This document shows, one piece after another, positions 3,318 through 9,683 of a DNA stretch of 64,000 bases. Each line of letters opens with the position of its first letter. The first letter of the stretch is position 1. Location: contig CABZFH010000001.1 in the NCBI GenBank assembly GCA_902524895.1, forward strand, positions 1 through 64,000. Reading direction: 5' to 3'. Made by a program: the position numbers and the translations under genes. The notes under the pieces were generated by a model. It did no database searches. It saw only the letters and a list, made by a program, of their open reading frames with translations, and was not told the DNA's origin. The stretch comes from an uncultured Alphaproteobacteria bacterium (GTDB lineage: Bacteria; Pseudomonadota; Alphaproteobacteria; Methylaequorales; Methylaequoraceae).

Positions 3318-4286
3318 ATGTTTAATGATCATATTAATATTGATGACGAGATTAGTTTTTGCGTCTCCACTGAAATTTTCAAAATTAAGACTAAGATAGA
3401 AGTTCAAAAGTTTACAAAAAAATCATCACTTGTACCAGATATTGACAAACATTATGTTTTTGATGAAAAAACAACAGTTTCGATACTTCAAGGATTAAAA
3501 CATAATAAAAAAGTTTTAGTACAAGGATTACATGGCACAGGAAAATCTACGCATATCGAACAAATTGCAGCACGACTTAACTGGCCATGCATTAGAATAA
3601 ATTTAGATAGTCATATTAGTAGATTTGATTTGTTAGGAAAAGATGCAATAGTGCTTAAAGAAGGTAAACAAATAACTACTTTCAAGGATGGTGTTTTACC
3701 TTGGTCAATTAAAAATCCTGTTATTCTAGTACTAGATGAGTATGATGCAGGACGACCAGATGTTATGTTCGTCATCCAAAGAATACTTGAATCCGAGGGG
3801 AAACTTACACTGCTAGAACAAAATAAAGTCATTAAACCCCATAAATTTTCACGAATTTTTGCAACAAGTAACACTGTGGGACTTGGCGATACCGCGGGGA
3901 TTTATCATGGAACTCAACAAATAAATCAAGGACAACTTGACAGATGGAATATTGTCACAACTTTAAACTATTTAAAACCAGACATTGAGGAAAAAATAAT
4001 TAGTAAAAAGGTCAAAGATTTTTATATAAACAATAAGAAAAATGTCTCTCAAATGGTAAATTTAGCTAATCTTACAAGAGAAGGTTTCAAAAATGCTGAT
4101 ATTTCAGTTCTAATGTCTCCCAGAACAACTCTATCATGGGCGGAAAACTCAGTATATTTTAACAATATAGATCTCGCATTCCAACTTTCGTTTTTTAACA
4201 AATGTGAAGAAAATGACCAACTTATAATAAATGAATATTATCAAAGATGCTTCGGACGTGAAATCTTGGGTTATGAAGCTTTTTAA
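3318..4286 (+). CDS. cobS: Cobaltochelatase subunit CobS
   Basis: AAA+ ATPase subunit of the aerobic cobaltochelatase that inserts cobalt into hydrogenobyrinate diamide with CobN and CobT. The 322 aa match the family length. Walker A is GLHGTGKST (near residue 74), Walker B is VILVLDEYD, and a sensor-1 type RIFATSNTVG follows. The N-terminal IDPDIDKHYVF-type segment (here VPDIDKHYVF) precedes the ATPase domain as in the family. It overlaps cobT by 14 bp. No cobN is in this window, so whether a full chelatase exists cannot be judged from here. Confidence 0.92.
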   Translation: MFNDHINIDDEISFCVSTEIFKIKTKIEVQKFTKKSSLVPDIDKHYVFDEKTTVSILQGLKHNKKVLVQGLHGTGKSTHIEQIAARLNWPCIRINLDSHISRFDLLGKDAIVLKEGKQITTFKDGVLPWSIKNPVILVLDEYDAGRPDVMFVIQRILESEGKLTLLEQNKVIKPHKFSRIFATSNTVGLGDTAGIYHGTQQINQGQLDRWNIVTTLNYLKPDIEEKIISKKVKDFYINNKKNVSQMVNLANLTREGFKNADISVLMSPRTTLSWAENSVYFNNIDLAFQLSFFNKCEENDQLIINEYYQRCFGREILGYEAF

Positions 4287-5991
4287 AGATCCAACAGAAT
4301 TTAAAAAGAAGGAGGCTTCTTCAGCTACCGCTAGAACTTTATCAAAAAATAAACATTTTTCTGTTGAATTTGTCAAAAAACAAAAAATAGGTAATAAAGA
4401 AAAATTTATTATTTCTATATTAGATGCTGAAGACCTAAAAATTGTCAGAGGTCAAATTGATTTAATTTGTTTTTTTGAAAGATTCATAAATAAAAAAATA
4501 TTTACTTCTGAGCTGCCAGTAAATTACAAAGAGAAAAAAATTTATAATTTAACGCATGATGTTAGAGCCATTATATTAGGCATTAAAAAATTCCCCGGTT
4601 CAAAAAAGAATATTGAACATTTCTATTCAAAAACTAATTATCAAATCTCAGACGACTATGCAGAGTATTCAGATCTCTTTTTTTATCTTCTTAAATTTTT
4701 TCAAAAAAAAATTACAAAAAATTTCAAAATAAATTTAAAAGAAGATTTAAAACTTAATCAACTTATTGATTTATTAAAAAAAAATATTGATGATCATCAA
4801 AGCTTTTCAAAAATCTCAAAAAAAATTTCAAAATTATTTCATACCGAAAATGAAGAATCTCAATTAGACTCACAAAATGATGGCTCAAGCTCAGAAAAAA
4901 ATAAAGACGAAAACCCTAGTGAAAATAAAAAATCTCTGAGTAAAGAGAAAATTAAAAAACTGCAATTTGCAAAAATTAATGAGATTAAAAATCAAAAAGA
5001 AAATAATAAAAGTATTAAAAATCAAAATTTTGAAGATAAAATATCTGACAAAGTTGATAAATATAAAGTCTTTACAAAAAAAAATGATTTAATTTCTAAT
5101 GCAAAAGACCTCGCAAGTAGTAATGAATTAAATATTTTAAAAAAAAAACTCGATGAAGAATCACCGAAGTTTGATTTTTTAATCAGAAAACTAGCCAATA
5201 AACTAGAAAGAAAACTTTTAGCCAATCAAATAAGAACATGGGAGTTTGATTTAGAGGAGGGGCTCCTTGATTCATCACGATTATCAAAAATAATTATCAA
5301 TCCTGAAGAAAGCTTAAAATTTAAAAATGAAAAAGAATCTATTGCAAAAAATACTATAGTTACATTACTGATTGATAATTCTGGATCAATGAGAGGAAGA
5401 CCAATTATAATTGCGGCCAATGCAGTAGAAATTCTTACTAAAACACTCGAACGTTGCGGTGTAAAAGTTGAAATCCTGGGGTTTACAACTCGTGAATGGA
5501 AAGGTGGTAAATCGAAAATTGAGTGGCAAGAAAATGGTAAACCCTCCAAACCTGGAAGACTGAATGATTTACTCCATATAATTTATAAAGATTCATCTAA
5601 AAATTGGACTAATTGTTCAAAAAATCTTGGACTTTTTCTTAAGGAAGGATTACTCAAAGAAAATATAGATGGAGAAGCTCTAGAATGGGCAAATAAAAGA
5701 TTAAGTTTTAAAGAACAAAAAAGAAAAATATTAATTGTAATATCTGATGGAGCACCAGTAGATGACTCAACACTGTCAGCTAATAATGCAAATATTTTAG
5801 AAACGCACTTGAGCGATATAGTAAGGGATATAGAAAATAAAAAATTTATTAATCTTATTGCAATAGGTATCGGCCATGACGTCTCAAAGTATTATAAAAA
5901 AGCTTTCACTATAGATGACGCTGATAAGTTAGCTGAGATTATGCTTGAAAAACTAACAGAAATTTTATCTAACAAGAAAGTTAATTCTTAG
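4273..5991 (+). CDS. cobT: Cobaltochelatase subunit CobT
   Basis: Partner of CobS in aerobic cobalt insertion. It has an N-terminal CobT domain, a long acidic, Lys/Ser-rich low-complexity linker (near 4850-5110), and a C-terminal von Willebrand A domain with an intact MIDAS motif DNSGSMRG and the downstream ISDGAPVDD. I prefer ATG 4273 (572 aa, overlapping the cobS end) because the in-frame ATG at 4231 would add a non-family extension lying inside cobS. The 3' end overlaps the convergent rpmB gene by 11 bp, leaving no room for a separate terminator. Confidence 0.9.
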   Translation: MKLFKDPTEFKKKEASSATARTLSKNKHFSVEFVKKQKIGNKEKFIISILDAEDLKIVRGQIDLICFFERFINKKIFTSELPVNYKEKKIYNLTHDVRAIILGIKKFPGSKKNIEHFYSKTNYQISDDYAEYSDLFFYLLKFFQKKITKNFKINLKEDLKLNQLIDLLKKNIDDHQSFSKISKKISKLFHTENEESQLDSQNDGSSSEKNKDENPSENKKSLSKEKIKKLQFAKINEIKNQKENNKSIKNQNFEDKISDKVDKYKVFTKKNDLISNAKDLASSNELNILKKKLDEESPKFDFLIRKLANKLERKLLANQIRTWEFDLEEGLLDSSRLSKIIINPEESLKFKNEKESIAKNTIVTLLIDNSGSMRGRPIIIAANAVEILTKTLERCGVKVEILGFTTREWKGGKSKIEWQENGKPSKPGRLNDLLHIIYKDSSKNWTNCSKNLGLFLKEGLLKENIDGEALEWANKRLSFKEQKRKILIVISDGAPVDDSTLSANNANILETHLSDIVRDIENKKFINLIAIGIGHDVSKYYKKAFTIDDADKLAEIMLEKLTEILSNKKVNS

Positions 5992-6332: not shown

Positions 6333-7532
6333 TCATTTAAAATTTTTTAGATAAATTCCTAGAATTTCGTTTGCTGCATTAATAGAGTTTAATTTATTGT
6401 TTGAAAGTTTTTTTTCGATTTCATATGAAATTTGATTATTTTTAATATCTTTTTCAATAAAGTTTTTGATTTTTTGATCGACTAAATCCCACATCCAATT
6501 TTTATTTTGATTAATTCTATTTTCTAGAAAATATTTTCTTTTTTTTCTTTCCTTAATAAATCCTGATATTCTATTCCATATATTGGCTATACCCTCGTGA
6601 TTTATAGAAGAACACATTTCAACTTTTGGTTTCCAGCTATCTCTAGCTGAGTTAATAATTGATATAGCATTTTTATAATCGTTTACAGTAACTTTAGCTG
6701 TCGATAAAAGACTTCCATCTGCTTTATTAACAACGAGTAAATCTGCAAGTTCAATGATTCCTTTTTTTATGCCTTGAAGATCGTCTCCACCTGAAGGGAG
6801 TAACAATACTAAAAAAATATCAACCATACTATGGACAGCTGTTTCTGCTTGACCTACACCCATTGTTTCAACAAATACAACATCAAAACCCGCAGCCTCA
6901 GCACAATTTATCGTTTCTCTAGTTGATTTTGTTACCCCACCCAAATGGCCTTGACTAGGACTGGGTCTGATATACGCATTTTTTTTTATTGATAACCTCT
7001 CCATTCTCGTTTTATCACCCAAGATTGATCCTCCTGTTTTTTGTGATGATGGATCGACAGCTAATACAGCGACCTTAAAATTTTCTTGTAGCAAATAAAG
7101 TCCCAGTGATTCAATAAATGTTGATTTTCCAACCCCTGGAACTCCCGATATACCAATTCTAATTGTATTATTTTTTTTTGGTAGAATAGAAATCAGAAAG
7201 TCAGATTTTTTTTGATCAAGAAGATTTGATGATTCAACTAGTGTAATCGCTTTAGCGAGAGATTTTATGGAACCTAGTGTAATTTCTCTAACCAATTTTC
7301 TAATGTCATCTTTGTCTTTGTTATTTAGTTCAATATTTTTGATGTCATTAATCAAAAAATCATTAGCAGATACAAATCCATTTGTTTCTTTGAAAATTGC
7401 CCTTAAAATCCTCTTATTTGGTATTCGATTTCCATTTATATACCTAGAAATAGAAATCTCTGATACTTTAAGAATTCTTGAAAATTGCTTTGAAGAGATT
7501 TTATTTAATTGTAAATAATCCTTAAGTAACAT
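6333..7532 (-). CDS. meaB: Methylmalonyl-CoA mutase-associated GTPase MeaB with N-terminal helix-turn-helix domain
   Basis: G3E-family GTPase (MeaB/ArgK) that gates B12 loading and protects methylmalonyl-CoA mutase. The MeaB part starts near residue 77 (RKLVREITLGS, then ITLVES) and has Walker A GVPGVGKST (residues 130-138), the AVDPSS segment, VETMGVGQAE and the NKAD base-recognition motif. The gene directly follows the mutase. Residues 1-60 are an additional Cro/XRE-like helix-turn-helix: FSRILKVSEISISRYINGN looks like a recognition-helix region followed by IPNKRILRAI. Ordinary MeaB is about 320-340 aa; this one is 399. There is no in-frame stop or alternative Met between the two parts, so it reads as a true fusion. 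A palindrome lies 8 bp upstream of the start. Confidence 0.9.
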   Translation of the reverse strand: MLLKDYLQLNKISSKQFSRILKVSEISISRYINGNRIPNKRILRAIFKETNGFVSANDFLINDIKNIELNNKDKDDIRKLVREITLGSIKSLAKAITLVESSNLLDQKKSDFLISILPKKNNTIRIGISGVPGVGKSTFIESLGLYLLQENFKVAVLAVDPSSQKTGGSILGDKTRMERLSIKKNAYIRPSPSQGHLGGVTKSTRETINCAEAAGFDVVFVETMGVGQAETAVHSMVDIFLVLLLPSGGDDLQGIKKGIIELADLLVVNKADGSLLSTAKVTVNDYKNAISIINSARDSWKPKVEMCSSINHEGIANIWNRISGFIKERKKRKYFLENRINQNKNWMWDLVDQKIKNFIEKDIKNNQISYEIEKKLSNNKLNSINAANEILGIYLKNFK

Positions 7533-7539
7533 AATTTAT

Positions 7540-7558
7540 AATAACCATATCGGTTATT
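7540..7558. promoter_or_regulatory. Perfect inverted repeat between scpA stop and meaB start
   Basis: Arms AATAACC and GGTTATT around the 5-base spacer ATATC fill most of the 28 bp gap between the mutase stop (7560-7562) and the meaB start codon (7532). It is too short and lacks a T tract for a good terminator. Because the next gene encodes a helix-turn-helix domain, an operator or translational control site is a reasonable inference, but this is unproven. Confidence 0.4.
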
Positions 7559-7559
7559 T

Positions 7560-9683
7560 TTACAACAACTTTATGATTTCTAGAGCCGCGTCTGGAATAC
7601 TTGTTCCAGGGCCAAATACTTTGGTTACTCCAATTTCTTCAAGAAAGGGATAATCATTAGGGGGTATTACTCCACCACAGATTACCTTGATAGATTCTGC
7701 ATCTAGTTTTTTAAGTTCCTTCATCAGGATTGGTACCAAAGTTTTATGACCTGCAGCCAAAGTTGAAACACCAATTATATGAACATCATTTTCAACTGCT
7801 TGTTTAGCAGCTTCTTCCGGTGTTTGAAATAAAGGTCCTATATCAACATCAAACCCTAAATCAGCAAAAGCAGTTGCTATAAGTTTTGATCCTCTGTCGT
7901 GACCATCTTGGCCCATTTTTACGACCAAAATTCGAGGTCTTCTTCCAAACTTATTTTTAAATATTTCAATCTCTTTTTTTACGCCACTTAACATATCACT
8001 AGATTTTACTGAATTTGCATAAACACCTGATATGGTTTTACTACTTGGTTTATGTCTATCGAAAACTTTCTCAAGAGCTTCTGTTATTTCACCTATTGTA
8101 CACCTGTTTAGAGAAGCTTCTATTGACAATTCTAAAAGATTAGAGTTATTATTTTCCGCAGCTGAAATAAGCTTAGCTAGACTGTTATTTACTTTACTTA
8201 AATCTCTATTTTTTTTTAAAATATCAAGTTTTGCTACCTGCTCTTTTCTTGCTTGCTCATTATCAATAGATAATATATTGATATCTTGTTGTTCATTAGG
8301 TTGATATTTGTTTACACCAACTATTGTTTCTTCCTTTGAGTCAACTCTAGCTTGTTTTTTTGCTGAACTTTCCTCAATCCTCATTTTAGGTATCCCTAAC
8401 TCTATTGCTTTTACCATACCACCAACATCTTCAACCTCTTTCATAAGTTTTTTAGCCTCCTTAATAATATTTGATGTTAGATTTTCAACATAGTAAGATC
8501 CAGCTAAAGGATCAATTACATTAGTTATTCCTGTCTCCTCTGCTAAAATCAGTTGAGTATTTCTTGCTATTCTCGCTGAAAATGAAGTTGGCAAAGCAAG
8601 TGCCTCATCAAAACTATTGGTATGAAGTGACTGTGTACCACCAAAAACAGCTGCCATAGCCTCAACAGTTGTTCTTACAACATTATTATAAGCATCCTGC
8701 TCAGTTAGAGATACACCTGAGGTTTGGCAATGAGTTCTCAAAGCCAAACTTTTCATATTTTTGGGGTTGAAATTTTTAATCATTTCTGACCACATAAATC
8801 TTGCTGCCCTCATCTTTGCAACTTCCATAAAAAAATTCATTCCAATAGACCAAAAAAATGACAATCTAGGAGCAAAGTCATCAATATTTAATCCTCTATC
8901 TAAAGCTATTTTTACATACTCCAATCCATCGGCTAGTGTATATGCAAGCTCTTGAACTTGGTTAGCACCAGCTTCTTGCATATGGTATCCACTTATTGAG
9001 ATTGAATTAAATTTTGGCATTTCTCTTGATGTGAACTCAATTATATCTGCCACGATTCTCATACTTGGTTGAGGTGGATAAATATAGGTATTTCTAACCA
9101 TAAATTCTTTTAAAATATCATTTTGTATTGTTCCAGTAAGCTCAGATTTACTACAACCTTGTTCAATTCCAGCTGCAATAAAACTTCCTAATACTGGTAG
9201 TACAGCCCCATTCATTGTCATGGAAACACTCATTTTGTTTAGTGGAATACCTTCAAATAGAACTTTCATATCTTCTATTGAATCAATCGCTACTCCTGCA
9301 TTACCAACATCAGCAACAACTCGTGGATGGTCAGAGTCATACCCTCGATGAGTTGCCAAGTCAAAAGCAACTGACAGACCCATGACACCATTTTTCAAAC
9401 CTTCTTTATAAAATCTATTCGATTCAGATGCTGTAGAAAACCCTGCATACTGTCTTATCGTCCAAGGTCTATTCGAATACATTGTGGCACGTGGTCCTCG
9501 TGTAAATGGAGGAAGCCCTGGGAACCCATCGGTATGCTCTAATCCCTCTAAGTCCTCTTTAGTATAAAGAGGTTTGACCATTATACCTTCTGGAGTTTCC
9601 CACTTTAAATCTGACAGCTTTTTTTCGCGTAATTCTTTTTCAGCTTGTTTATTCCAGTCATCTATAGTGTAATTTTTTGCCAA
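7560..9683 (-). CDS. scpA: Methylmalonyl-CoA mutase (single-chain, B12-dependent)
   Basis: Interconverts succinyl-CoA and methylmalonyl-CoA using adenosylcobalamin, as in propionate or ethylmalonyl-CoA metabolism. The 707 aa length is that of the single catalytic subunit (homodimeric type). The substrate barrel occupies the N-terminal two thirds ([17 protein letters not shown], then [11 protein letters not shown] and MTMNGAVLP). The C-terminal B12-binding domain starts near residue 580 with D593-G-H595-D-R-G598 and a GVSTLAAGH segment. It is translated 14 bp after the HAD gene and is followed by meaB, its GTPase chaperone, within the same leftward operon. Sequence conservation is high throughout. 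Confidence 0.95.

Follow-up and report, generated by a model that had tools for sequence, protein, structure and literature searches.

A helix-turn-helix domain fused to the B12 chaperone MeaB and a conserved candidate operator before its own gene in an alphaproteobacterial order

Trigger enzymes and self-repressing enzymes, such as PutA, BirA and NadR, bind operators at their own or related promoters. The chaperone MeaB uses GTP for loading B12 into methylmalonyl-CoA mutase. When GTP-bound MeaB engages the mutase, one protomer rotates by about 180 degrees (PMC9974510). BzdR is an XRE helix-turn-helix (HTH) domain fused to a shikimate-kinase-like domain and controls a catabolic promoter via the sensing of benzoyl-CoA (PMC3602430). 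In Rhodobacter, the propionyl-CoA carboxylase genes are controlled by PccR, a separate ScfR protein (PMC12632250). In the 64,000-nucleotide stretch of DNA from an uncultured alphaproteobacterium analysed here (the window), an HTH domain and MeaB are encoded together, next to the gene of the mutase MutB and a candidate operator (Table 1).

Table 1. Features of the HTH-MeaB locus in the window, and fusions of the same HTH type to other proteins in other alphaproteobacteria
Feature	Position in window or loci	Strand	Description
HTH-MeaB fusion gene	6333..7532	(-)	399 aa, ATG start; 24 genomes of the order have orthologous fusions
N-terminal XRE/Cro-type HTH, residues 1-60	7353..7532	(-)	Pfam HTH_3 above cut-off; AlphaFold2 pLDDT 95.5; fold matches
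Predicted recognition helix, residues 25-33	7434..7460	(-)	R30 and Y31 do not vary within the order
Variable linker, residues 61-76	7305..7352	(-)	low pLDDT block; looser dN/dS; length and sequence vary
MeaB G3E GTPase/chaperone domain, residues 77-399, P-loop G130-T138	6336..7304	(-)	Pfam, NCBIfam, Foldseek, switch residues
Candidate operator ATAACC-gatat-GGTTAT, 17-bp palindrome	7541..7557	(.)	-25 to -9 from ATG; in all 24 loci
Promoter-like element TTGTAA-16-TATTAT over operator	7538..7565	(-)	found by consensus scan only; at chance level in window
mutB, methylmalonyl-CoA mutase, MeaB client	7560..9683	(-)	NF006944 1213.7 bits; stop 27 nt before fusion ATG
HTH-aspartate carbamoyltransferase (PyrB)	L068/L091/L120-L125		six genomes, one family
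HTH-2-oxoglutarate dehydrogenase E1 (SucA)	L079/L126-L137		about 15 genomes, one genus
HTH-glutamine synthetase-type ligases	L073-L078, L097		seven genomes seen
HTH-RibBA (bifunctional)	L083, L092-L096, L098-L100		nine genomes
HTH-TorD/nitrate-reductase-delta-type chaperone	L080		one genome

The fusion is read in a single frame, uninterrupted from its ATG. A preliminary description of the window had suggested surveying the MeaB proteins of relatives for the same N-terminus. This N-terminus was found fused to MeaB in 24 of the 32 genomes surveyed in the window's order, which are small-genome alphaproteobacteria from one family. Since the N-terminus is fused in 24 genomes and the dN/dS of the HTH is about 0.04-0.13 across eight close pairs, indicating purifying selection, the fusion is not a product of chance, and it can be stated with high confidence that it is real and family-wide. 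A frame artefact or wrong start is ruled out by the 24 genomes without stops and by the selection on the HTH. Among the matches in the class and phylum samples, no MeaB fusion was seen outside the order, and the MeaB matches found there showed no alignment before residue 65.

Between the two domains, residues 61-70 are weakly structured in the AlphaFold2 model of the full protein, and the linker dN/dS of 0.05-0.34 is looser than that of the HTH. The preliminary description had read HTH and MeaB as continuous, which is confirmed, and had reported no alternative start at the junction, which is inexact, as TTG is present at codons 60 and 80 of the window gene, though no evidence favours the use of these codons. 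In addition to the full-length repressor-chaperone, a short MeaB could be produced by initiation inside the gene around codon 80, where an ATG is present in 10 of the 24 fusion loci and a TTG in the window. Roughly half of the loci have no such start, and a clear Shine-Dalgarno sequence is lacking, making two products quite unlikely. Translation starting near codon 77 had also been considered; across the 24 loci, the candidate starts near the junction were not conserved, and no clear Shine-Dalgarno sequence was seen before them.

The MeaB domain is recognized by Pfam MeaB (PF03308; residues 92-358, 314.6 bits) and by the NCBIfam MeaB equivalog NF006958 (residues 72-395), with equivalog scores of 422 against a cut-off of 329 for NF006958 and 299.5 against 240.75 for TIGR00750. 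Foldseek aligns this part with MeaB/MMAA structures at an E-value of about 1e-26. The residues D160, D173, R176, E222, Q228, D250, Q253 and K256 are invariant across 15 aligned fusions and correspond, at +68 numbering, to the Methylobacterium extorquens MeaB switch and catalytic residues D92, D105, R108, E154, Q160, D182, Q185 and K188 (PMC9974510). As all named switch residues are invariant in the 15 fusions, the chaperone cycle of HTH-MeaB is probably intact. Most genomes of the order also have a second, shorter MeaB-like GTPase, in the window's genome a protein of 306 aa and about 31% identity at L112 4497-5417 (-) (G000:C3), adjoining a glyS-like gene. There, this second GTPase falls under the MeaB equivalog cut-offs, and the protein most likely to be the true MeaB is therefore the fusion.

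The N-terminal domain is assigned to HTH_3 (PF01381, residues 3-48), scoring 24.6 bits when the whole protein is searched and 28.4 bits with residues 1-76 alone, against a Pfam cut-off of 23 bits. The YdaS profile (PF15943) stays at 14.1 bits, under its cut-off of 30. AlphaFold2 predicts five helices (3-9, 14-21, 25-33, 40-49 and 57-60), with a block pLDDT of 76-92 for the HTH region in the full protein and a mean of 95.5 for the HTH modelled alone. Foldseek matches, nearly all of them HTH regulators, include the P22 c2 repressor, HigA, CylR2 and YdaS, with TM scores of 0.7-0.78 and, for this very small domain, weak E-values of 0.04-0.2. ScfR/PccR regulators have a C-terminal ScfR-type effector region. 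In the fusion protein, Pfam found only HTH_3 and MeaB/P-loop domains and no ScfR-type domain; an identity as an ScfR/PccR-type regulator is ruled out, as no ScfR-type C-terminal region is present in the window protein. The XRE/Cro HTH at residues 1-60 and the complete MeaB with GTP motifs at about 77-399, both recognized in the preliminary description, are thus borne out, including by the domain check on the N-terminal residues that it had suggested; residues 1-70, which might have been unstructured or non-HTH, contain the five helices within residues 3-60.

The gene mutB lies directly upstream of the fusion in all 24 loci, with 22-27 nt between the end of mutB and the ATG. Genomes without the fusion are also without this mutB, the sole exception being G005, whose mutB is truncated by the end of a contig; the majority of these genomes are incomplete. 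A further B12-type acyl-CoA mutase, about 665 aa long and 37% identical to MutB (e.g. G000:C7:44583-46514), is encoded in most genomes of the order and is possibly an ethylmalonyl-CoA mutase. CobS/CobT-like cobaltochelatase genes are located at 3318-5991 (+) of the window and converge with the rpmB/HTH-meaB/mutB cluster, a gene order that relatives retain. No cobalamin riboswitch was found in the window.

A palindrome, with WTAACC-N5-GGTTAW as consensus in the order, takes up nearly all of this short gap. The window copy, ATAACCGATATGGTTAT, is the candidate operator DNA and the proposed binding target of HTH-MeaB; in relatives, the palindrome lies at about -20 to -3. It is present in 24 of 24 fusion loci, with one changed base in two of them (L006 and L013, the latter reading TTAGCC-ataat-GGTTAA). 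The arm columns are identical in 19-21 of the 22 distinct sites, while spacer and flanks vary. Most relatives also have a TTGAAA-17-TATATT-like element, with the palindrome over the -10 or the expected +1. This TTGAAA also codes conserved MutB residues; as it is partly set by MutB codons and the window match is at chance level, the promoter geometry is supporting evidence only. With a conserved candidate operator for the HTH, a link between the MeaB protein and transcription is well supported.

The palindrome could also act as an RNA hairpin over the ribosome-binding region that sets MeaB translation, with the role of the HTH being separate or non-regulatory. It sits at the Shine-Dalgarno place and folds into 6-7 bp directly before the start codon, with z-scores of -1.2 to -3.0. 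Structure alone, however, does not predict fixed letters, and the arm letters are fixed, with covariation nearly absent: L006 and L013 have one-sided arm changes among the 24 loci, and symmetric change occurs in the outermost pair only. In addition, related HTH genes have the N5 geometry at promoter positions (-22 to -70). A hairpin is therefore considered unlikely.

When 28 genomes of the order were scanned in full, none had more than two exact copies of the palindrome, and the site in the mutB-meaB gap is the only perfect match in the 1.43 Mb of the window's genome. Of the extra perfect copies examined, one was found between genes before an unrelated small ORF (G010), and the others lay inside giant repetitive ORFs or inside one further gene. 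Four of the scanned genomes lack the fusion: no copy was seen in G020 or G025, and in G018 and G019 it is giant ORFs that contain the copies. At L036, L046, L049, L051 and L052, palindrome copies fall within the coding sequence of giant, repetitive, adhesin-like ORFs located at the ends of contigs. These scans bear on a further alternative, in which HTH-MeaB is a regulon transcription factor that senses B12 or mutase status and acts on propionate/B12 genes. An XRE-type HTH joined to a sensor-like GTPase would suit such a role, as would the nearby mutB and cobS/cobT-like genes, but the exact palindrome is found once or twice per genome, before the fusion gene, and the other examined matches are mostly in coding repeats. 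Sites with up to two mismatches are at chance level in the window (16 found, 14 expected). A regulon of many sites is ruled out by the near-unique exact palindrome per genome, and a regulon factor in general is improbable. As the operator is found before its own gene and nearly nowhere else, control of the own gene rather than of a regulon is indicated, for which the support from these comparisons is good. The link between mutase or cofactor status and transcription that the preliminary description had proposed is thereby upheld in part: the conserved candidate operator ties MeaB to transcription, but the near restriction of the site to the own gene speaks against a regulon.

The same HTH type was detected by an HTH profile search in other alphaproteobacteria, either on its own, in proteins of about 57-90 residues, or as N-terminal enzyme fusions. 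Partner domains were assigned by Pfam on representatives and read from the sequence for the remaining members. No published HTH-MeaB, HTH-RibBA or HTH-glutamine synthetase was found in the open-access literature, which is not proof of absence. Among 41 HTH genes outside the order, partly non-independent as some share one fusion clade, 14 have perfect 6-bp arms with a 5-nt spacer upstream, compared to 1.9 in dinucleotide shuffles (sd 1.1, maximum 5) and 2.8 in other windows of the same loci (sd 1.5, maximum 7). Upstream of these 41 genes, palindromes with a 4-nt spacer showed no excess. The N5 palindromes of the related HTH genes are located further upstream than in the fusion, and those of the PyrB and SucA clades overlap promoter-like elements. 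In the PyrB clade, a TTGACA box is followed by TTACC-N5-GGTAA in six of six cases, and in the SucA clade a TTGAC box is flanked by TGTGCC-N5-GGCAAA and TTGCC-N5-GGCAA. The RibBA fusions have a different recognition helix and arms reading TTTcAG/CTgAAA or similar. Changed arms together with a changed recognition helix and constant spacing are what is expected if a family of dimeric HTH proteins acts on the promoters of its own genes.

Other members of this HTH group were also observed. HTH proteins of 167-233 aa at L081 1023-1565 (+), L082 170-670 (-) and L087 2118-2816 (-) seemingly have a common C-terminal stretch ending like YP..NP. Perfect N5 palindromes lie directly before the start in L081 (GTACCC-N5-GGGTAC) and L082 (GTATCC-N5-GGATAC). 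At L110 (G043:C6:31834-33553), four related small HTH genes are arranged in tandem over about 1.7 kb.

The HTH could also be a structural extension of MeaB, involved in oligomerisation or mutase contact without DNA binding. HTH-like folds are known inside enzymes, methylphosphonate synthase being one among the fold matches of the HTH, and MeaB normally carries an N-terminal extension (PMC9974510). This explanation is very unlikely, as it accounts neither for the conserved palindrome nor for the equal palindrome geometry before unrelated HTH-bearing enzymes.

HTH-MeaB is thus likely a self-repressing chaperone with the palindrome as its operator. The protein would be bifunctional, with the MeaB GTPase loading and protecting the neighbouring B12-dependent methylmalonyl-CoA mutase and the HTH binding DNA. 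A dimer would bind the 17-bp palindrome in the mutB-meaB gap and block the promoter of its own gene there, so that the amount of chaperone would be set by self-repression; the bound dimer may also form a roadblock for transcription arriving from mutB. DNA binding and binding as a dimer are what we infer from the sequences, as is repression rather than activation, which follows from the operator position only. From MeaB biochemistry, mutase or cofactor status would be a plausible signal, and confidence in the identity of the signal is low. The most speculative part is a client-controlled release from the DNA through mutase binding or the GTP state. Engagement with apo-mutase and GTP could rotate a protomer by about 180 degrees and bring the two HTHs out of register, leading to derepression that would last until enough chaperone is made. 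That the metallochaperone senses apo-mutase via a GTP-driven dimer flip off the operator, with the HTH being a self-repression plug-in attached repeatedly (SucA, glutamine synthetase, PyrB, RibBA, TorD-like), is conceivable but doubtful. If true, one protein would be a direct readout of the demand for cofactor loading, matching the chaperone dose to the mutase. The presence of one HTH type on six or more metabolic proteins that are unrelated to one another, together with matching N5 palindromes in front, suggests a modular route to self-control, which would extend even to 2-oxoglutarate dehydrogenase E1, a central enzyme.

Compared to known systems, the fusion shares the whole MeaB domain, the P-loop and the switch I-III residues with the MeaB/MMAA chaperones (PDB 2qm8, 4jyb, 8dpb and 8gju). 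It is 40-45% identical to the solved structures, and the adjacency to mutB is likewise similar, whereas the solved proteins and the MeaB genes found outside the order have no HTH and show no alignment before about residue 65. The phage Cro/YdaS and P22 c2 repressors (PDB 8co2, 8c7k, 2r1j and 3jxb) resemble HTH-MeaB in HTH sequence and fold, but are stand-alone regulators with low identity (about 23-24%) to the HTH of the fusion. PccR, like HTH-MeaB, concerns regulation in the methylmalonyl-CoA pathway of Alphaproteobacteria (PMC12632250), but is a separate protein of the ScfR family that is not fused to MeaB. BzdR has the same arrangement of an N-terminal XRE HTH, a linker and a P-loop enzyme domain, but its kinase domain shows no kinase activity (PMC3602430), whereas HTH-MeaB keeps all catalytic and switch residues. 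Also, BzdR acts on a catabolic promoter, whereas the candidate operator of HTH-MeaB is at its own gene. PutA, BirA and NadR follow the same plan, an enzyme or cofactor-handling protein combined with operator binding, in other domain combinations; to our knowledge, they do not include a G-protein metallochaperone, and use of the HTH type of the fusion is not known for any of them. With a DNA-binding domain and an enzyme in one chain, HTH-MeaB would join enzyme-repressors such as PutA, BirA and BzdR as a fresh domain combination.
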